Positions 17,234 to 58,520 of a DNA stretch of 64,000 bases are shown in pieces. A program made the position numbers and the translations under genes. How positions within the stretch are numbered: position 1 is the first letter of the stretch; each line of letters starts with the position of its first letter. The stretch is from Sialis fuliginosa (lineage: Eukaryota; Arthropoda; Insecta; Megaloptera; Sialidae), in assembly GCA_961205875.1 (NCBI GenBank), contig OY540812.1, positions 9,548,001-9,612,000 on the forward strand. Direction: 5' to 3'. The notes under the pieces were generated by a model. That model did not search any database. It was given only the letters and a program-made list of their open reading frames with translations, and had not been told where the DNA came from.

Positions 17234-17236
17234 TAG

Positions 17237-17802
17237 TAGCCCAGTCATATTAGGTAAAAAAAGGGGTCAACCTCGGAATGAAAGATAATAAGCTGCAAAT
17301 TGGTATGAACCTTTGTTTTGTCATTCTAAATGTTGTCTCAAAAGTCACAATCGTTATCGTGTCCGCGTCTCAAGATATTCAAGGTCAAAGGTCACAAAAA
17401 TCGGTTTTTCGCGAATATCTGGCTTCCTATCGGTTAAATGAGATTTGCATTTATTATAAAAGTTGTAGACTATAAAATTCCCTACAACTTTTGTTTAAAC
17501 TTTTTTTTCATACGACCAACCGTTTTGAAGGTAGAGCGCGAAGAGTGCACATCGTACAGTCATATACGGCCTAATGCAAGGTCAAGCGTGAGTTATGGTT
17601 ATCAGTACGTTATAAAGTCAATTATTTACTTGGAAATTATAATTATTAAACAATGCCTATTATTTATGTACTAACTATTAATTATTTATATTTAATTAAA
17701 GTAAGTAACTTGATTATTTATATATAATTATTCATATTTAACTATTTAAGTATAAAATATTATTAATTCTGGATTATATATTTTAGTTTTATTTTAAGTT
17801 AA
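17237..17802 (+). repeat. left terminal inverted repeat of the Academ-like element
   Basis: 566 bp, the inverse of 22597-23153. I noted only two substitutions by eye (near 17453 and 17470) plus one replaced block just inside the terminal 18 bp: 15 bp here against 6 bp in the right TIR. Confidence 0.85.
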
Positions 17803-18015
17803 CACGACATTATATATCTTTTCTTTAAAACGCGTAAATTTCTCAATACTTATATACCTGGAAATACTTGTCCCTACCCTATGCCCTTTTCTATTCATTG
17901 CCGGGACAGATGTTCTATAGTATTCAAGGCCACTCTCTCCACTTTGTATGAGTCAAGATTATTCGTTAGTTTGAAATTGTACCGTTGCAACTACGGACGT
18001 ACGGTTTTAAGAGCT

Positions 18016-21000
18016 ATGGCTGATTTGTGTTTTATATGTGATAAGAAACTTTCAGAAGGTGTTTCTGTGAATGTCGTACGTGGTTTACAAACTTTAAAAA
18101 CTGCAAGTATTGAAAGAAATGATGGACATATAGACTATTTAAATACTTTAAGTTCTGTAAATGTGCATTCCGAGTGTCGAAAAGTGTACACGAGTAAAAA
18201 TGTTATTATTGCATCAAAACGACGCACAGATGAGAGTGAACCTTCAACGTCAAGTGCACCTCGTAAAAAACGAAATGAAGTCTTTGATTTTGGAAAGTTA
18301 TGCTTATTTTGTGGCCAAGAAGCTGATGAAATAGCAGAAAAGAAAAAAAAATTAAAGTATAGACGGACAATAAGTAATGTAAGTACTCTTGCATTCAAAG
18401 ACAACGTAATTAAGAGAGCAGAAGAACGAAACGATTCCTTAGGAGAATTAGTAAAGGAACGTATATATTACGAGTATGATTTGATCGCTGCTGAAGCAAA
18501 GTATCATACTATTTGCTATACCAACTTTTTAACCCGAGTACCATCTGCAGATAAAAAGCCTCGCCAAGATGATCAAGTCACTCAAGCAATGAAGGAGATT
18601 TTTTATTATATAGAAAATAATGAAGATTCTCAATTTACTTTGAAAGAACTTAAAGATGTCCCTACGGAATACATACCTGACGATAAGACAATTATTACAA
18701 AATTACAACAAAAGTATTTAACTGATATAATAATCACAAAAAAAATTGGATCATTTACAATTATATCTTTCCGTGATACACAGCTTAACGTATTATCAAA
18801 AGCTTGGTACGAAAATAAAAAAAGTACTCCTGTAGAAGAACGTCTACGGATTGTAGAAGCTGCTGCGGCTATTATTAGGGAAGACATCAGATCATCTGTA
18901 GTTGAAACAAAAACGTATCCACCTCCGAATAAAATGCTAGATTGTATTAATGAAGAAATACCAAAAACATTATCACATTTTTTGGAAGAAATGATATTAA
19001 AAAATAGAAAAGGACAAGTAGATCATTTAAAAACGAAATGCACATCTATTAGCCACGCAATAATGGCTTCGATACGAGAACGTTCATTTTCATCACAGCT
19101 ACTGTTGGGCCTTTCCGTATTTCTTCACAGAAGATATGGGTCTAAAAAATTGTTGGATGTTTTATCATCTTTAGGATTTGCTGCATCATATAGTAATACC
19201 ATACAGTATGAAGTTTCATCAGTTTACCATCCACAACCTCGTATTTTACCATCAGAGTCTGGTGCGTTGGTACAATATGTTGGAGACAATGCAGATATTA
19301 ATGTCAGTACTCTTGACGGTAATAATACTCTTCACGTTATGGGAATGATAAAAATAATTACTCCGAAAGATGCTGTAATTTATGATGATCGCATAAAAAA
19401 ATGTACAACTAAACCGAGTGCAAAAGAGTTAGCAGCAATATCACATGTATCTCTTTTAGCATATGAAAAGCCAGTTGTACCTGGGTACAGCAAGATTCAA
19501 GTCCAAAATCTACATGATGATCAAGTACTGATTGAAAAAAAATTTAATGCAGTTGATTTGTTGTGGTTATACGGAAAATGGAAGAATCTTTCACCGTTGC
19601 CAGGGTGGAATGGCTATCTTCAACAACTTACGAAAAATAATCAAAATTTTTCAACTTCTCAGGTTATATTTCTACCTTTCATTGATCATCCTGCCAGTAA
19701 TTTAGACACAATTTATACAACTTTACATAGTGCTATAAATATTGCCAAGTCACATCAACAAAAAACGTGCATAATTACATTTGATCAGCCCCTGTACTCA
19801 AAAGCACGTGAAATGGTTGCTGCGTCAGATGCAAACTCAGACTTGTCTAAAACAGTTGTCAAACTTGGAGGATTTCATATGCTCATGTCTTTTCTTGGAT
19901 GCATAGGACATGTAATGGACGGTAGTGGTCTCAAGGAAGCTTTAAGTAAAATATATGCTACAAATTCGGTCGACAAAATGTTGAATGGTCACGCTTATGC
20001 AAGAAGTATCAGAGGCCATATATTATTACGACTTGCATTATCAATAAAGATTTTTGAAGAGATGAAAATTGAAAATTGTGTGTTAGATGAGTTAATTGAA
20101 CAGATAACTAGTCGCGATGTTTCCTACGAAGATGTTGAAGGATGTACGAGCAGCTCCAACTCGTTAATTGATCAATTTCAGGATAAACTAAAAGAATTAA
20201 AAGCTCGAGGTCCCACGGCACAGTTATGGGTGCAATATTTTGAAATGGTATCAATAGCCCTAGATTTCATTCGCGCTGAAAGGCTGGGACTTTTTCAAGA
20301 ACATTTGGATGCAGTGCGAAAAATGCTGCCCTATTTTCATGCTGGTGGTCATTTCCTATATGCGAAATCAGCTCATTTGTATCTTCAAGATATGTTAAAA
20401 CTTGAGGAGACAATGGATCAACAGGCTTTTGAGAACTTTAAAAACGGATTCTTTACTGTAAAACGAACAGAAAAATTCAATTCTGGTACATGGACAGACA
20501 TGGTAATCGAGCAAAGTCTGATGAAATCTATGAAGACAGAAGGAGGAGTATCTCGAGGCCGAAGTACACAAGAAAGTGTTCTATGTAAGTGGGTATATGC
20601 TATGTATGCCACGAATACAATTTGTGAAGAAATTGAACGGTTTTGTAACATTTCTTTCGATTCTGTGGACCAACATGTTGATGCTAGAGATTCACGAATA
20701 AAAAGGGATGATACTGATGTAAATGAACTGGTTGGTTGGTTTACGCTTCATAATCCCTTTCCAAATACGAATCAGTTGGTATCCTTAGCTTCAGGAATCG
20801 TTGGAAATGACCAAATTAATTGTCACCGAGCCCATGAAATCGGATTGCAATCTATGGTAAAGATAACTGGTTTGAACTTCAACGAAATAAAGTTAAAACG
20901 CGTCGATAAGGTTTTACCGCTTTCAGCCATTAACAAATCTGTCAAAATTAATGATTGTAAAGTTTCTATAGATCCAATGTTACTTTTCCAGAGAATAACT

Positions 21001-22458
21001 GTAAGCAAAAAATTTGAAAGTAATTTACAAGAATATCTTCAGTATGAACTAAGCCCGTATCCGACATCTTTATTTGATAGTAATGGCATGAGAAAAACCA
21101 CGAAAGCAACATTATATGACAATATGATGCCTGTCGTTATCGATCTTGATGAAAATAATGTAACATACATCATCGATGGTGGATTTCTTCTGCATCGCGT
21201 CGTATGGAGCAAAGACGATACTTTCTCTATTATTTTAAATAAGTACATTAAATATTTACAAACACATTATGGCTCAGCAATTGTTGTTGTATTTGACGGA
21301 TATTCGGACTATAGTAAAAATATTAAAGCACTGGAACAACAAAGAAGAACTGCTGCACTTTCAAAATCATATGAAGTTTGTTTTGACGAAACAATGGTTG
21401 TGCCAATCAGTCAAGAAAAATTTTTATCAAATCGGTCTAATAAAAAAAAATTTATCGACATGCTTGTTGAAAAATTTAAAACTGTTAATATCACAACAAA
21501 ACAAGCCAGAGATGATGCTGATGTTCTCATCATTGACACAGCTATTGCCTTATCAGAACATCAAAAGACTGCTGTCATCATAGGAGAAGATATCGATTTG
21601 CTCGTTATTTTAATTGGACGTACTCAGTCACATCATCAGGAAATTTTTTTGAAAAAAGTTGGCAAAGGCAATGTCAAAACACAAATATATTCTACTAAAA
21701 GTTTTGACCAATATCCTCGTACTAAAAAGCACATTTTATTTTTACACGCATTCAGTGGCTGTGACACGACTTCTGCGCTATTTAAAAAAGGAAAAAAAAC
21801 TGTTACTAGAGCATTGGAAAAAATTCCTGATTTAGATAAACTGGTGGAAGTATTTCAACAAGAAAACTGCCCAAAACAAACATTATTAGAAAATGGAGTG
21901 CGCATCTTGTTGGCATTATATAATGCTCCAAAATCTGAGGACAACATTGATCATTTCCGCTACACGCAATTCATCAAATTTACAAAACTAAATAAACCTG
22001 TACAACTGTCAACACTTCCACCAACAAGTGTAGCAGCTCATCAACACATAAAACGTGTCTACTACCAGATTCAAACGTGGTTAGGGAAGGACTTAGAACC
22101 TCAAGAATGGGGCTGGATGCTTGAAAATGAAATCCTGGAGCCCATACGAACGTTATTACCTCCAGCACCAGCCGAACTACTAAACGTAATATTTTGCAAT
22201 TGCAAAAATGGTTGTGGTTCCCGCTGTGGATGCAGAAAATCAGGGCTACAATGTTCTTTAGCTTGCGGCCAGTGCAACGGACAAGCTTGCCTCAACGCTT
22301 CACTGTATCCAAGTAATCCCGATGAAGAAAATACATATGATCCCGATATTCTGGAAGGTTTGGAGATGAACATGACAGATAATGAGGATGATGACAATGA
22401 ATCGAACATTTTTGAGCGACAAGAAGAAGAAGACGACGAACAAGAAGAAGATAATTAG
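18016..22458 (+). CDS. Academ-like transposase with PIN/XPG-like and CXC domains
   Basis: The frame opens with an ATG at 17881, but the ATG at 18016 (residue 46 of the longer frame) directly precedes the first zinc motif and is the likelier start. Numbering from 17881: two CxxC...HxxC zinc modules (C50, C53, H96, C99 and C141, C144, H209, C212); a transposase core with candidate catalytic residues D469 (GDNAD), D635 (TFDQPLY) and E877 (MVIEQ); a PIN/FEN-like nuclease domain at about 1085-1310 with acidic motifs IDGG (D1099), VVFDG (D1139), DDAD (D1211-D1214), GEDIDLL (E1236, D1237, D1239) and SGCDTTSAL (D1295). A CXC cysteine cluster follows (C1439-C1470, twelve cysteines), then a strongly acidic tail. 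It should bind the TIRs and cut and join DNA during transposition. The transposase family is recognised from recurring motifs (AYARS, GGxSRGR). The nuclease fold and the DDE assignment are inferences from motif spacing. Confidence 0.8.
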   Translation: MADLCFICDKKLSEGVSVNVVRGLQTLKTASIERNDGHIDYLNTLSSVNVHSECRKVYTSKNVIIASKRRTDESEPSTSSAPRKKRNEVFDFGKLCLFCGQEADEIAEKKKKLKYRRTISNVSTLAFKDNVIKRAEERNDSLGELVKERIYYEYDLIAAEAKYHTICYTNFLTRVPSADKKPRQDDQVTQAMKEIFYYIENNEDSQFTLKELKDVPTEYIPDDKTIITKLQQKYLTDIIITKKIGSFTIISFRDTQLNVLSKAWYENKKSTPVEERLRIVEAAAAIIREDIRSSVVETKTYPPPNKMLDCINEEIPKTLSHFLEEMILKNRKGQVDHLKTKCTSISHAIMASIRERSFSSQLLLGLSVFLHRRYGSKKLLDVLSSLGFAASYSNTIQYEVSSVYHPQPRILPSESGALVQYVGDNADINVSTLDGNNTLHVMGMIKIITPKDAVIYDDRIKKCTTKPSAKELAAISHVSLLAYEKPVVPGYSKIQVQNLHDDQVLIEKKFNAVDLLWLYGKWKNLSPLPGWNGYLQQLTKNNQNFSTSQVIFLPFIDHPASNLDTIYTTLHSAINIAKSHQQKTCIITFDQPLYSKAREMVAASDANSDLSKTVVKLGGFHMLMSFLGCIGHVMDGSGLKEALSKIYATNSVDKMLNGHAYARSIRGHILLRLALSIKIFEEMKIENCVLDELIEQITSRDVSYEDVEGCTSSSNSLIDQFQDKLKELKARGPTAQLWVQYFEMVSIALDFIRAERLGLFQEHLDAVRKMLPYFHAGGHFLYAKSAHLYLQDMLKLEETMDQQAFENFKNGFFTVKRTEKFNSGTWTDMVIEQSLMKSMKTEGGVSRGRSTQESVLCKWVYAMYATNTICEEIERFCNISFDSVDQHVDARDSRIKRDDTDVNELVGWFTLHNPFPNTNQLVSLASGIVGNDQINCHRAHEIGLQSMVKITGLNFNEIKLKRVDKVLPLSAINKSVKINDCKVSIDPMLLFQRITVSKKFESNLQEYLQYELSPYPTSLFDSNGMRKTTKATLYDNMMPVVIDLDENNVTYIIDGGFLLHRVVWSKDDTFSIILNKYIKYLQTHYGSAIVVVFDGYSDYSKNIKALEQQRRTAALSKSYEVCFDETMVVPISQEKFLSNRSNKKKFIDMLVEKFKTVNITTKQARDDADVLIIDTAIALSEHQKTAVIIGEDIDLLVILIGRTQSHHQEIFLKKVGKGNVKTQIYSTKSFDQYPRTKKHILFLHAFSGCDTTSALFKKGKKTVTRALEKIPDLDKLVEVFQQENCPKQTLLENGVRILLALYNAPKSEDNIDHFRYTQFIKFTKLNKPVQLSTLPPTSVAAHQHIKRVYYQIQTWLGKDLEPQEWGWMLENEILEPIRTLLPPAPAELLNVIFCNCKNGCGSRCGCRKSGLQCSLACGQCNGQACLNASLYPSNPDEENTYDPDILEGLEMNMTDNEDDDNESNIFERQEEEDDEQEEDN

Positions 22459-22553
22459 CTTCCATTTCCAATTTCATTACAATTAAAATCAACAAAGATA
22501 CTTTTGATATTTGAACTCACATTTTGATAAATGTATATTATGCCGTATTTAAT

Positions 22554-22559
22554 AATAAA
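22554..22559 (+). terminator. candidate poly(A) signal of the transposase gene
   Basis: AATAAA about 100 bp after the stop codon and before the right TIR. Confidence 0.4.
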
Positions 22560-22596
22560 TAAAAATATGTGTAAAATATATACTCTTACTATCATT

Positions 22597-23153
22597 TTAA
22601 CTTAAAATAAAACTAAAATATATAATCCAGAATTAATAATATTTTATACTTAAATAGTTAAATATGAATAATTATATATAAATAATCAAGTTACTTACTT
22701 TAATTAAATATAAATAATTAATAGTTAGTACATAAATAATAGGCATTGTTTAATAATTATAATTTCCAAGTAAATAATTGACTTTATAACGTACTGATAA
22801 CCATAACTCACGCTTGACCTTGCATTAGGCCGTATATGACTGTACGATGTGCACTCTTCGCGCTCTACCTTCAAAACGGTTGGTCGTATGAAAAAAAAGT
22901 TTAAACAAAAGTTGTAGGGAATTTTATAGCCTACAACTTTTATAATAAATGCAAATCTTATTTAACCGATAGGAAGCCAGATATTCGCGAAAAACCGATT
23001 TTTGTGACCTTTGACCTTGAATATCTTGAGACGCGGACACGATAACGATTGTGACTTTTGAGACAACATTTAGAATGACAAAACAAAGGTTCATACCAAT
23101 TTGCAGCTTATTATCTTTCATTCCGAGGTGAAAGCCCTAATATGACTGGGCTA
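22597..23153 (-). repeat. right terminal inverted repeat of the Academ-like element
   Basis: 557 bp, the inverse of the left TIR. It begins about 140 bp after the transposase stop codon. Confidence 0.85.
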
Positions 23154-23156
23154 TAG

Positions 23157-37800: not shown

Positions 37801-37920
37801 TTTAATTTGTTATTAAAATCAACGTTTAAGAAAATCAAATTTATTATAATCTTTCTTATTTTTTAAATAAATTTTTATATTTATTCGGAAATATAAAAAA
37901 AAAGCAGAAGTTAATTTATA

Positions 37921-40228
37921 CACTCACGGAAAAAATTAAAGGACCACTTTTATTTTTCGAAAAAATTGCTCATTTTCAAAGTAATGCCGATAGGTCAAAT
38001 ATGATCCATTTTTTACTTATAGGATATGAAAATTGAAGGAAATTTTATCATCTTTTCGAATTTAGGGGTATATTTGTTTTATTAAACTTATTATTGTGAC
38101 CAAATCGCGGTTTAATAAAAAATAAAAAAATTGATTTTTTTTTGCAATTTTGAAAGATACCCACGGGGATGTTAAATTTTTTTTCTAAAATTTCAAGATA
38201 ACCATTTTGTAGGAAATTTGTTCAGCTTTAAAACACTTTTTCAAATTTGTTTTATAATTTTTTGGTGTTACGATATTCGAGTTTGAATGAAAAAAGTACC
38301 AACAAGTTTTAAACGACCATAAAGGGCCTAATGTTAGTCGCACAGAAAAGAAAAAAAAAGAATATTAAAGCTTAAATAATCACCTATTGTCTAGTAGCAT
38401 TTATAAAATGTTTAATTTTAACTTAACCCTTCAAATACGAAAAACAAAACAGTGTTCGAATTTAAATAATCCTGTAAAAATAACCTTTTTTTAATCATAG
38501 ATCTAATGTTTAGAATGTATCCAGAAATTAAGTTCTATCAAAGAATATGAAAATTAGACTTATTACCTTCTATGTGAACAAAGGTTCCAGTAAAAATCTT
38601 TTAATTTGGCTGAGAAATTGCATTTTGAATTTTTTGTATACGTTTAGGATTTGACCGTACTTTTTATAACAAGTTTTTCTTTGGGATTTTTTTTTCGAAA
38701 AACAATCAATTTTTGAGAAAAATTGTAAGAAGGAAAAAGTTTTTCTTTCTTGTTAAAGAATATTCTTAATTTTTTTCAGATGTTTTATATCAATATTGTG
38801 GGATTAAATTTATTTTTAATAGGGTACTTTTTCATTCAAACTTGAATATCTTGGCATCAAAAAATGTGACAATCATTTTTTAAAAAGCATTTTGAAGCTG
38901 AGAAAATTTACTAAATGATGAATATCATGGAATTTTGAAAAAAATAATCATACATCCCCGTGTGAAACTTCCATAATTACAAAAAATTTCAATTTTTAAT
39001 TTCAGTCAACTGCGTGTGGTCATGAAAAAACGTTCAACAACATATTAAATACTCTTGATTTCGACAGTTAAATTAATTTTCATTGAATTTTCACCGCTTA
39101 TTCGTTCAAAGTAACTGAATTTTTTTTGGTCCACACGTAGTTGACTAAAAAAAATTAATTATTTATTTGCAGTTATAGAAATTTCACACGGGGATGTATG
39201 ATTTTTTTTTTCAAAATTCCATGATATTCATCATTTAGTAAATTTTCTCAGCTTCAAAATGCTTTTTAAAAAATGATTGTCACATTTTTTGATGCCAAGA
39301 TATTCAAGTTTGAATGAAAAAGTACCCTATTAAAAATAAATTTAATCCCACAATATTGATATAAAACATCTGAAAAAAATTAAGAATATTCTTTAACAAG
39401 AAAGAAAAACTTTTTCCTTCTTACAATTTTTCTCAAAAATTGATTGTTTTTCGAAAAAAAAATCCCAAAGAAAAACTTGTTATAAAAAGTACGGTCAAAT
39501 CCTAAACGTATACAAAAAATTCAAAATGCAATTTCTCAGCCAAATTAAAAGATTTTTACTGGAACCTTTGTTCACATAGAAGGTAATAAGTCTAATTTTC
39601 ATATTCTTTGATAGAACTTAATTTCTGGATACATTCTAAACATTAGATCTATGATTAAAAAAAGGTTATTTTTACAGGATTATTTAAATTCGAACACTGT
39701 TTTGTTTTTCGTATTTGAAGGGTTAAGTTAAAATTAAACATTTTATAAATGCTACTAGACAATAGGTGATTATTTAAGCTTTAATATTCTTTTTTTTTCT
39801 TTTCTGTGCGACTAACATTAGGCCCTTTATGGTCGTTTAAAACTTGTTGGTACTTTTTTCATTCAAACTCGAATATCGTAACACCAAAAAATTATAAAAC
39901 AAATTTGAAAAAGTGTTTTAAAGCTGAACAAATTTCCTACAAAATGGTTATCTTGAAATTTTAGAAAAAAAATTTAACATCCCCGTGGGTATCTTTCAAA
40001 ATTGCAAAAAAAAATCAATTTTTTTATTTTTTATTAAACCGCGATTTGGTCACAATAATAAGTTTAATAAAACAAATATACCCCTAAATTCGAAAAGATG
40101 ATAAAATTTCCTTCAATTTTCATATCCTATAAGTAAAAAATGGATCATATTTGACCTATCGGCATTACTTTGAAAATGAGCAATTTTTTCGAAAAATAAA
40201 AGTGGTCCTTTAATTTATTCCGTGAGTG
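37921..40228. mobile_element. 2.3-kb near-perfect palindromic fold-back element
   Basis: The left arm 37921-39021 and right arm 39128-40228 (1,101 bp each) are inverse copies around a 106-bp centre, with TA (or TATA) on both sides. The outer ~1 kb is almost identical; I saw one difference, at base 13. The ~85 bp next to the centre differs much more. Each arm contains a module of about 140 bp twice in opposite orientation (38162-38300 and 38823-38962), so the arms are themselves imperfect palindromes. No ORF. The ends begin CACTCACGG and include AAATTAAAGGACCAC; TA flanks suggest Tc1/mariner-type mobilisation. Confidence 0.8.
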
Positions 40229-40650
40229 TATATGAGTAGAATTTTTTTCAATCAATAGACTTATGACATTGTTTATTACAAAAATAACTTTTACAGATAA
40301 TTTTTTTACCGTAGATCCGAGTGTGTGGGAACTATAAATATTTAATGATACTCTCTATAATTACGCAGATGTTGTAACTGATAACAAAACACCCTATTTA
40401 AACTTAGTGTGGAGTATGTACATTGATAAAAAGCGCAATTATCTGCAACAGACTGGCACGACGCGCGCGCAACTGCAAATATGTATACGGGTGGTTTAAA
40501 AATTGTAAACATTCAACAATGTATAATGATTTTTTATTTATTGTGGTTCATGTAAGAGAGGGGTTAACTTTATTAAAATATTTTTTTAACGTCCATGTTA
40601 TTTGCTGAATGTTTTTTTTAAAGACATTCAGCAAATTGTATACTAAAGAG

Positions 40651-41074: not shown

Positions 41075-43405
41075 GAAATCATTAATCTACTTTACTCTTT
41101 TAATCTTAAATGTGCGGTAACACAACCTACTAGAATAACAAAAAAATCAAGTACTTTAATAGACAATATATTTACTAATGTTGACCTAAGTATATGTAAT
41201 ACAAAAAATATAAACACCTCAATATCCGACCACGCTGCCACAATATTAACCGTACAGTGGGATGACAAAAATAAACATGTTAATAATAACAGCACAGATA
41301 ATATTATAATGAAACGAAGTTTCAATGATTTTAATCTAAACTATATGAATTTCAATTTAAAAAATATTAGTATTAAAGCACTCTGTGATATTAATAACGT
41401 ACAAGATTTATACAAGTTTTATTATGATGATTTTACTTATTATTTTAATGTAAGTTTCCCTTTAAAAAAAGGAAAATTATTTCCACAAAAGGGAAATAAT
41501 TGGATAACAAGTGAGTTAAGAGAGGAAAGTCAAATTTTAAAAGAGCTTTTCAAAATTAAAAACTGTGATGGTATGTTAGAAGTTTACAAAAATTTTAAAA
41601 AAGAACATACAAGTAACATAAAAAGGACGAAAAAAAGTTTTTATTTTAAAAACATAGATTTTAATTCAAAGAATAGTCGTGATGTCTGGTCTGTGATAAA
41701 TAAAATCACTGGAAAATATGTCAATAAAAAAATAACTTTTATAACATTGTTACATAACAATAAAAAAATTAATAATGATGAAGTGGCTAATATATTTTTA
41801 AATCATTTTGCAAATACAGTAAACCAAAAATTAAATAAACATTTTAAAAATAATGTATCAGAGAACTGTACAAATTCTAAAATTGTAAATAGGACTATGT
41901 TCTTATATCCAACAAATAAAGGTGAAATTTTAAATACAATTAAGAAGCTACCAAGTGGGCCATCAACCGGAGCTGACCAAATTCCAACTATAGTATTAAA
42001 ATATTGTGCAGACATTATAAGTGACCATATAACAATAATAATTAATAAAATTTTTGAATGTGGGGAATATCCGGATATTTTAAAAATAGCTAAATTGAAA
42101 CCTCTTTTAAAACATAAGAACCCCGAAGACATTAACAATTACAGACCGATATCTTTACTGTCTTGCTTTACAAAGATTATAGAAAAAATAATATGTAGTC
42201 GTATCAATGACTTTTTTGAAGATAACAACATTCTGCATGATTCTCAGCATGGCTATCGGGGGGAGAGATCCACCATGACTGCAACTGTTGAATTATATAG
42301 TAACTTGACAAAAATGCTCGATAGTGGATTGGCTGTTTATGGGTTGTTTTTTGATCTGACTGCGGCTTTTGACACTGTCAATCATCAGTTTCTATTGACG
42401 AAACTGCAGCAAATGGGTCTTAGAGGTAATGCGAATAAACTAATAAAATCTTATTTAGAAAATAGATCCATGTACGTGAATATAAATGGCACCGACTCTG
42501 AAACAGCGGCAGTTGAAGTAGGAGTACCTCAAGGTAGCAATTTAGGGCCATTATTGTTCATGTGTTATGTAAATGATTTGCCTGACTATTTGCTCATAGG
42601 GAAAGTAATAATGTATGCTGATGATGTGACAGTGTTAGTAGCCGCGGACAGTATTGACGATGCTAAAGAGTTAGCGATTAATGTAATTCGACAGTTTCAG
42701 GAATGGTGTTTCTCAAACATCCTTATAGTTAATGTTGAAAAAACGTGTGTTGTGAATTTCCAATTAAAGCATAAAAATGGTGTCAATAATATTGTTACTT
42801 ATATGGACGATAATGTTTTCAAACCCGCGTTAGTAGCCAGATTTTTAGGAATGTATATGGATGACACATTGAAATTCACAGCACACGTTGACGAATTATG
42901 TAAAAAATTATGCAGGTGTTGTTATCAGATAAGAATATTGAAACAATATCTTGACGAGCACCAGTTGATAGCTTACTATTACGCACATGTGTACTCTGCA
43001 ATGAGGTATGGTATCCTTCTGTGGGGAAGTACTTCAGAGGCTGGAAGAGTGTTTGTTATACAGAAAAAAATTTTAAGACTAATTTTTAATTATGATCAAA
43101 AAAAATCACTTAGAGGTATTTTTAAAACTAACAATTTATTAACTATTTATGGTATATATGCAACAGAATTATTAAAAAATATCAAAAGCAAAAAAGAAGA
43201 AAGGAAAATTGCAAATTATGACTTTAGAGGTAGAATTCAAGAGATATACCATAAAACTACCTTTTATGAAAGATCTCCAGATTATATGTATAACAAACTT
43301 ATAAACACTCTTCCTGGCATATTAAAAACCTCAAAAACATACAAAATACATTTAAAGCAGTACTTCATAATGAAGGAACCATACAGCATTGCTGAGTGCT
43401 ATTAG
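41075..43405 (+). CDS. non-LTR retrotransposon ORF2 fragment: endonuclease end and reverse transcriptase
   Basis: The open frame runs from 41075, 78 codons before the first ATG (41309), to the stop at 43403-43405. The part before the ATG is real: it reads AVTQPTRITKKSSTLIDNIF and then TSISDHAAT, the C-terminal motif of APE-type endonucleases with the catalytic SDH (41225-41233). Numbered from the ATG at 41309, the reverse transcriptase has NNYRPISLLS (276-285), QHGYRGERST (313-322), FFDLTAAFDTVNH (347-359, catalytic D349), GVPQGSNLGPL (405-415) and YADD (436-439). The C-terminal thumb-like region follows to residue 698. The motifs fit the jockey/CR1-type group of LINEs; the exact clade cannot be told. 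With the 5' end lost, it should not be able to make a full ORF2 protein. Codon use is very AT-rich like the host, and the reading frame is undamaged, so the copy is fairly young. Confidence 0.85.
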   Translation, partial: EIINLLYSFNLKCAVTQPTRITKKSSTLIDNIFTNVDLSICNTKNINTSISDHAATILTVQWDDKNKHVNNNSTDNIIMKRSFNDFNLNYMNFNLKNISIKALCDINNVQDLYKFYYDDFTYYFNVSFPLKKGKLFPQKGNNWITSELREESQILKELFKIKNCDGMLEVYKNFKKEHTSNIKRTKKSFYFKNIDFNSKNSRDVWSVINKITGKYVNKKITFITLLHNNKKINNDEVANIFLNHFANTVNQKLNKHFKNNVSENCTNSKIVNRTMFLYPTNKGEILNTIKKLPSGPSTGADQIPTIVLKYCADIISDHITIIINKIFECGEYPDILKIAKLKPLLKHKNPEDINNYRPISLLSCFTKIIEKIICSRINDFFEDNNILHDSQHGYRGERSTMTATVELYSNLTKMLDSGLAVYGLFFDLTAAFDTVNHQFLLTKLQQMGLRGNANKLIKSYLENRSMYVNINGTDSETAAVEVGVPQGSNLGPLLFMCYVNDLPDYLLIGKVIMYADDVTVLVAADSIDDAKELAINVIRQFQEWCFSNILIVNVEKTCVVNFQLKHKNGVNNIVTYMDDNVFKPALVARFLGMYMDDTLKFTAHVDELCKKLCRCCYQIRILKQYLDEHQLIAYYYAHVYSAMRYGILLWGSTSEAGRVFVIQKKILRLIFNYDQKKSLRGIFKTNNLLTIYGIYATELLKNIKSKKEERKIANYDFRGRIQEIYHKTTFYERSPDYMYNKLINTLPGILKTSKTYKIHLKQYFIMKEPYSIAECY

Positions 43406-58202: not shown

Positions 58203-58316
58203 TATGTACATAGTACATATATACAAATATCCATACATTGTACATATGTATGTGATATGACTCAAGCAAAAGAAACATAAAAAAAGACGAAAGAGATTTT
58301 TTCATTTGAAGCACAT

Positions 58317-58520
58317 ACGAATATACAAAAAATTAAATCAAAATTACTTTGCAGTTTGATACGTAAAGAAATTAATGTTTTGTAAAGGTTTGTACCGAAC
58401 AAAATAACATCGTATTTATACGAATAAATACAAAAAACTAAACCAAAATTACTTTGCTGTTTGTTACGGAAAGGAATTAATGTTTTCTAAAGGTTTGTAC
58501 CGAACAACATCGTAAGTACA
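58317..58520 (+). repeat. tandem duplication, two ~102-bp units
   Basis: 58317-58419 and 58420-58520 are diverged direct copies (both contain AAAATTACTTTGC and AAAGGTTTGTACCGAACAA). Non-coding. Confidence 0.75.

Follow-up and report, generated by a model that had tools for sequence, protein, structure and literature searches.

An intact and young AcademX-like DNA transposon of Sialis fuliginosa pairs a putative DDE core with a predicted FEN-type nuclease domain

Why would a transposon protein that appears to contain a DDE transposase core also carry a second nuclease domain, of the FEN type? The question is raised by a complete DNA transposon of 5,917 bp at positions 17237–23153 of the window (the whole 64,000-nucleotide stretch of Sialis fuliginosa DNA analysed here), and the presence of eleven near-identical copies in one genome makes the role of the second nuclease testable. 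Our literature search on the role of the second nuclease in such elements found no answer. The reading that we prefer, with a probability of roughly three in four, is that of a young autonomous AcademX-type DNA transposon in which the DDE site would probably join the 3' ends to the target and the FEN-type domain is hypothesized to clear the 5' donor flank.

The ends of the element were defined by repeat search and by comparison of copies. The upstream terminal inverted repeat (TIR) is 576 bp long (17237–17812, + strand, with the tip TAGCCCAGTCATATTAGG) and the downstream TIR is 567 bp long (22587–23153, − strand). They are alike over the outer 18 bp, differ over a short island and then share a 543-nt core that is 99% complementary. 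Flank sequences and copy comparison place a target-site duplication (TSD), TAG, at 17234–17236 on the left and 23154–23156 on the right, neither copy having a strand. Between the TIRs lies a single open frame of 1,525 codons (17881–22458, + strand). An initial sequence-only reading of this DNA had described TIRs of about 560 bp, a 3-bp TAG duplication and one uninterrupted 1,525-codon frame, all of which agree with what we found. Each TIR also contains a 35-nt imperfect palindrome (AAAAGTTGTAG...CTACAACTTTT), at 17458–17492 and 22907–22941. Elsewhere, the window holds a long inverted repeat (37917–40232; 1,070-nt arms, 99% complementary, separated by 176 nt) that is possibly a foldback element, a LINE-like open frame (41075–43405, + strand) whose 776 aa include a reverse transcriptase domain (RVT_1, E = 9.8e-35), and a tandem repeat of about two 105-bp units (58315–58507). 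Scans of the window for tRNAs and Rfam families found nothing.

The sequence-only reading had also proposed a search of the host genome for other copies and empty sites. In the genome containing the window (392 Mb, 20 contigs), this yielded 11 full-length copies, the window copy included, and empty sites for both insertions that were checked. Over the 5,917 bp, eight copies are identical (the window copy among them) and three have one substitution each; two of these three substitutions alter the protein, and the frame is open in 11/11. With just 3 differences in about 65 kb, the spread of the family must have been very recent, and the family is very young and probably still mobile. All 11 copies are flanked by perfect 3-bp TSDs (ACA, TTA, CTA, TAA, TAG, TGT, TTA, CAG, ATT, GTA and TAT), none of which extends to 4 bp (0/11). 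The empty-site check covered 2 of the 11 insertions. For the first (L011), the joined flanks are unbroken at two other places (297 bp, 99%), and for the second (L008), they occur at two other places over their full 300 bases (given as 100%); these empty sites fall in repeated sequence. As a 3-bp TSD of differing sequence accompanies every copy and an empty site was found for each of the two insertions checked, the TSD signal is above chance. Together, the TSDs and empty sites demonstrate a 3-bp stagger and clean insertion.

The tips of the element were searched for across the same 392 Mb. The terminal 17-mer has 22 exact occurrences (11 per strand), while the same 17-mer read backward, used as a control, has 0. 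Because all 22 occurrences sit at the ends of the 11 full copies, this search found neither shortened derivatives nor solo ends bearing the exact tip; diverged TIR-like pieces are present in the genome. This distribution bears on a different role for the nuclease, namely that it serves donor-site repair or replication of the element (gap processing, re-replication) instead of the second-strand cut. Enzymes of the FEN type work in DNA replication and repair, and a genome with 11 copies and exact ends nowhere else would fit an efficient increase in copy number. However, youth alone accounts for the absence of defective copies, and we consider a repair or replication role conceivable but rather unlikely.

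Diverged relatives were found by a protein search with at least 34 matches, a number that includes the 11 full copies. The remaining matches (at least 23) are 36–65% identical, many with stops or frame breaks; these counts are lower bounds, with 31 of 353 candidates scored. We aligned 14 relatives (loci L032–L050) to the window protein, with three C7 matches and C14:3914765 (all four lacking a locus) excluded, and alignment A1 comprised 7 references, five with or adjoining stops having been dropped beforehand. Identity to the relatives is 38–62% in the nuclease domain and 26–80% in three parts of the DDE region. The C14 relative (L036/L042, with its frame on the other strand) carries TAGTCC tips, a 3-bp TSD (TTC) and TIRs about 639 bp long (97%); the C4 relative has a TAGTCC start where expected; and a TIR of 524 bp (97%) was seen in the C3 relative. 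The C11 relative (L032/L047/L039) has a TIR that matches its partner at 99.6% identity and extends for at least 1,332 bp, to the edge of the fetched stretch, with an additional inverted repeat pair inside the region. No relatives were found by tblastn in IMG/VR viral or GTDB prokaryotic genomes.

Comparison with the C14 relative bears on the short islands that interrupt the TIR pair. As read from the sequences, the upstream TIR of the window copy departs from the downstream one over 15 bp (17255–17269, + strand), and the downstream counterpart is 6 bp long (23130–23135, − strand). In the window family, the distance from the tip to the TIR core after the island is 34 bp at the upstream end and 25 bp at the downstream end; in the C14 relative, it is 37 bp at the end that lies upstream of the frame and 28 bp at the opposite end. 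The spacer is therefore 9 bp longer upstream in both families, whose proteins are about 40% identical. Three old remnants (L059–L061) have the upstream-type spacer, at the same length as in the window. That such a difference has been kept between otherwise so similar long repeats suggests selection on it, although a difference shared by two families only could be coincidence. We also considered a conserved GGGG motif in the island, which was rejected: it is on the upstream side in the window family but on the downstream side in the C14 relative, and only the 9-bp difference agrees.

The TSDs and tips also bear on which superfamily the element belongs to. The element might instead belong to a different DDE superfamily that makes 3-bp duplications (PIF/Harbinger, CMC or Zator), with its nuclease gained independently. 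TSDs of 3 bp are common to several DDE superfamilies, and our placement near Academ draws on TSD length and the predicted nuclease. However, the TSD of PIF/Harbinger is TWA, which fits only 3 of the 11 TSDs (TTA, TAA and TTA); the tip of CMC is CAC, not the TAGCCC or TAGTCC seen here; and no transposase Pfam family matches. Membership in one of these other superfamilies appears quite improbable.

For the protein itself, the likely start is M46 (position 18016), which would probably give 1,480 residues, as the alignability of most relatives begins at residues 46–50 and the stop of the closest relative precedes the matching Met by two codons. Two related copies are alignable from residue 25–41 already. 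Shortly after this start are two C2HC sets (C50 C53 H96 C99 and C141 C144 H209 C212; 18028–18516, + strand), which are absent from the sequence-only reading and which we consider a putative zinc-binding DNA-recognition region; all eight residues are invariant in 8/8 alignable rows, the window included. Near the C-terminus is a CXC-like cluster (residues 1439–1470; 22195–22290, + strand), for which there was no Pfam match. It has nine cysteines instead of the twelve originally counted, a number that is reached only if all cysteines after residue 1080 are included. The N-terminal C2HC sets and the C-terminal cluster would both probably bind DNA.

The putative DDE transposase core (19282–20514, + strand) was identified from conserved motifs. 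All of the motifs named at the outset are present in the window protein, with GDNAD at residues 468–472 as given and two positions amended: TFDQPLY is at 633–639 (not 634–640) and MVIEQ is at 874–878 (not 875–878). Among the candidate residues, D469 and D472 are conserved in 5/5 rows, D635 in 8/8 and E877 in 7/8, and we infer that one of D469 and D472, together with D635 and E877, makes up the catalytic D, D and E. Pfam gave nothing above the cut-off for the DDE region, PDB matches had E values of 1.6 or higher, and an AlphaFold single-sequence model of residues 400–960 had a mean pLDDT of 35.5.

The FEN/5'-3' exonuclease-type domain (residues 1085–1325; 21133–21855, + strand) is predicted from profile comparison and from seven acidic positions. 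Using hhalign, we compared a profile of residues 1085–1330 (11 rows) with a 5'-3' exonuclease template built from E. coli PolA and seven phage 5'-3' exonuclease fragments, which gave a score of 53.1 over 153 columns (E = 4e-7, probability 92.8). Among 500 block-shuffled templates, the best score was 25.1, so that 0/500 reached this value. For comparison, the profile of the DDE region scored 20.3 against the same template, and the exonuclease profile scored 75.8 against FEN/XPG. Against a FEN1/XPG profile, which is thin (4 rows), the domain scored 26.2 (probability 5.6, E = 0.0068), a score matched by 0/400 full shuffles and 1/400 block shuffles. This alignment has FDG, DAD, EDID and GCD in register, and IDGG was out of register with FEN1 in the global FEN1/XPG alignment. 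The exonuclease alignment spans six of the seven acidic positions, with D1295 aligned only against FEN1/XPG.

Family and structure searches gave weaker matches or none. The full-length protein matched no Pfam family up to E = 1, the nuclease domain did not reach the gathering score of the XPG or 5'-3' exonuclease families, and in an hmmsearch with the nuclease profile, human FEN1 did not stand out from 2,000 shuffled decoys. Sequences of the domain alignment weakly matched 14 Pfam families, 4 of which are of nuclease or PIN type (5_3_exonuc_N, NYN_YacP, PIN_4 and NYN), the best being 5_3_exonuc_N (0.0052). The PIN-type weak matches were all on relatives, and the window's own nuclease domain had weak matches to four unrelated families. 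In PDB sequence searches, neither the whole protein nor the nuclease profile found a match, and other queries gave matches at chance level only; an AlphaFold single-sequence model of residues 1066–1351 had a mean pLDDT of 34.4.

The seven acidic positions, which we take to be the FEN1-type metal-binding residues by FEN1 numbering, are conserved as follows (window row included): D1099 in 8/8 rows, D1139 in 7/9, D1212 and D1214 in 11/11, D1237 in 11/11, D1239 in 10/11 and D1295 in 10/10. Five of the seven thus never vary among the 8 to 11 rows that can be aligned. The profile match and the acidic positions uphold the suggestion of a FEN/PIN-like second nuclease domain. As for the accompanying proposal of two metal-dependent nuclease centers in one protein, the FEN-type domain is supported by its profile match, while the DDE core is putative, with conserved motifs and no profile match to an RNase H fold. 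That the domain is instead a catalytically dead structural relic, serving only in binding or dimerization, is very unlikely: the acidic departures that would favor this are in the relatives C8 (E at 1139 and N at 1239) and C14c (N at 1139), both of which carry stops, whereas the intact element keeps all seven acids and five are invariant across the alignable rows.

Under the preferred reading, the DDE core would probably nick the 3' ends of the element and join them to the target with a 3-bp stagger, a chemistry suggested by its motifs. A DDE site cuts the 3' ends, and the 5' ends remain joined to the donor unless they are otherwise cut; FEN-type nucleases, in turn, cut 5' flaps. Considering these two activities, the FEN-type domain most likely handles the strand left uncut by the DDE site, severing the donor flank from the 5' ends. 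This cut may take place before strand transfer, in a TnsA-like manner, or afterwards by 5'-flap trimming, in a Mu-like manner. A more speculative extension, which we put forward only tentatively, is a self-sufficient transposase that brings its own 5'-flap nuclease for the second strand and whose ends are distinguished by the 9-bp-longer upstream island. Such a transposase would dispense with a hairpin step and with a flap nuclease of the host. With 11 copies, known ends and known empty sites, this intact and young family is natural material for a donor/helper assay in cultured cells.

Several known systems can be compared with the element. FEN1/XPG and bacterial 5'-3' exonucleases share with it the seven acidic positions, the motif order and a profile match, but here the domain is inside a transposon protein and below every Pfam cut-off. 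In Tn7, TnsA severs the element's 5' ends from the flanking donor DNA ahead of strand transfer, and the 5'-flank strand is handled separately, a likeness that is a mechanistic analogy only; if the nuclease removes the 5' flank, the element would be a eukaryotic counterpart of the Tn7 two-nuclease division of labor. Phage Mu, also as a mechanistic analogy only, is similar in its separate handling of the 5'-flank strand, as transposase-mediated resection of the 5' flaps attached to the incoming genome is described for Mu infection (PMC3325207).

Our search of the literature found no paper joining Academ with XPG among the best 20 of 88 matches, nor with stricter terms, with two key papers being outside its coverage. 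The closest likeness is to AcademX, as TSDs are described as 3 or 4 bp in AcademX and 9 or 10 bp in AcademH, a difference tied to an encoded nuclease versus a helicase (PMC10045372). Here, the TSD is 3 bp in 11/11 copies and in the C14 relative, and the predicted domain, with its exonuclease profile match and seven acidic positions, would supply the nuclease. The intact transposon first proposed from sequence, with a FEN/5'-nuclease-type domain and a 3-bp TSD, therefore matches that description of AcademX; unlike AcademH, it has neither a helicase match nor a TSD of 9 or 10 bp (PMC10045372). TSD length and predicted nuclease thus fit AcademX by description. The length of the element (5,917 bp) is also near the mean of 5,565 bp given for bivalve Academ (PMC10294476). 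Among insects, Academ is reported in Lepidoptera and parasitoid wasps (PMC5704228, after Zhang et al, 2016), which resemble the present case in recent activity in insect genomes and differ in that one B. mori copy is described as seemingly complete, compared to the 11 near-identical full copies here (PMC5704228). The AcademX-type kind is itself already known, and this element would be a new, young member of that kind.
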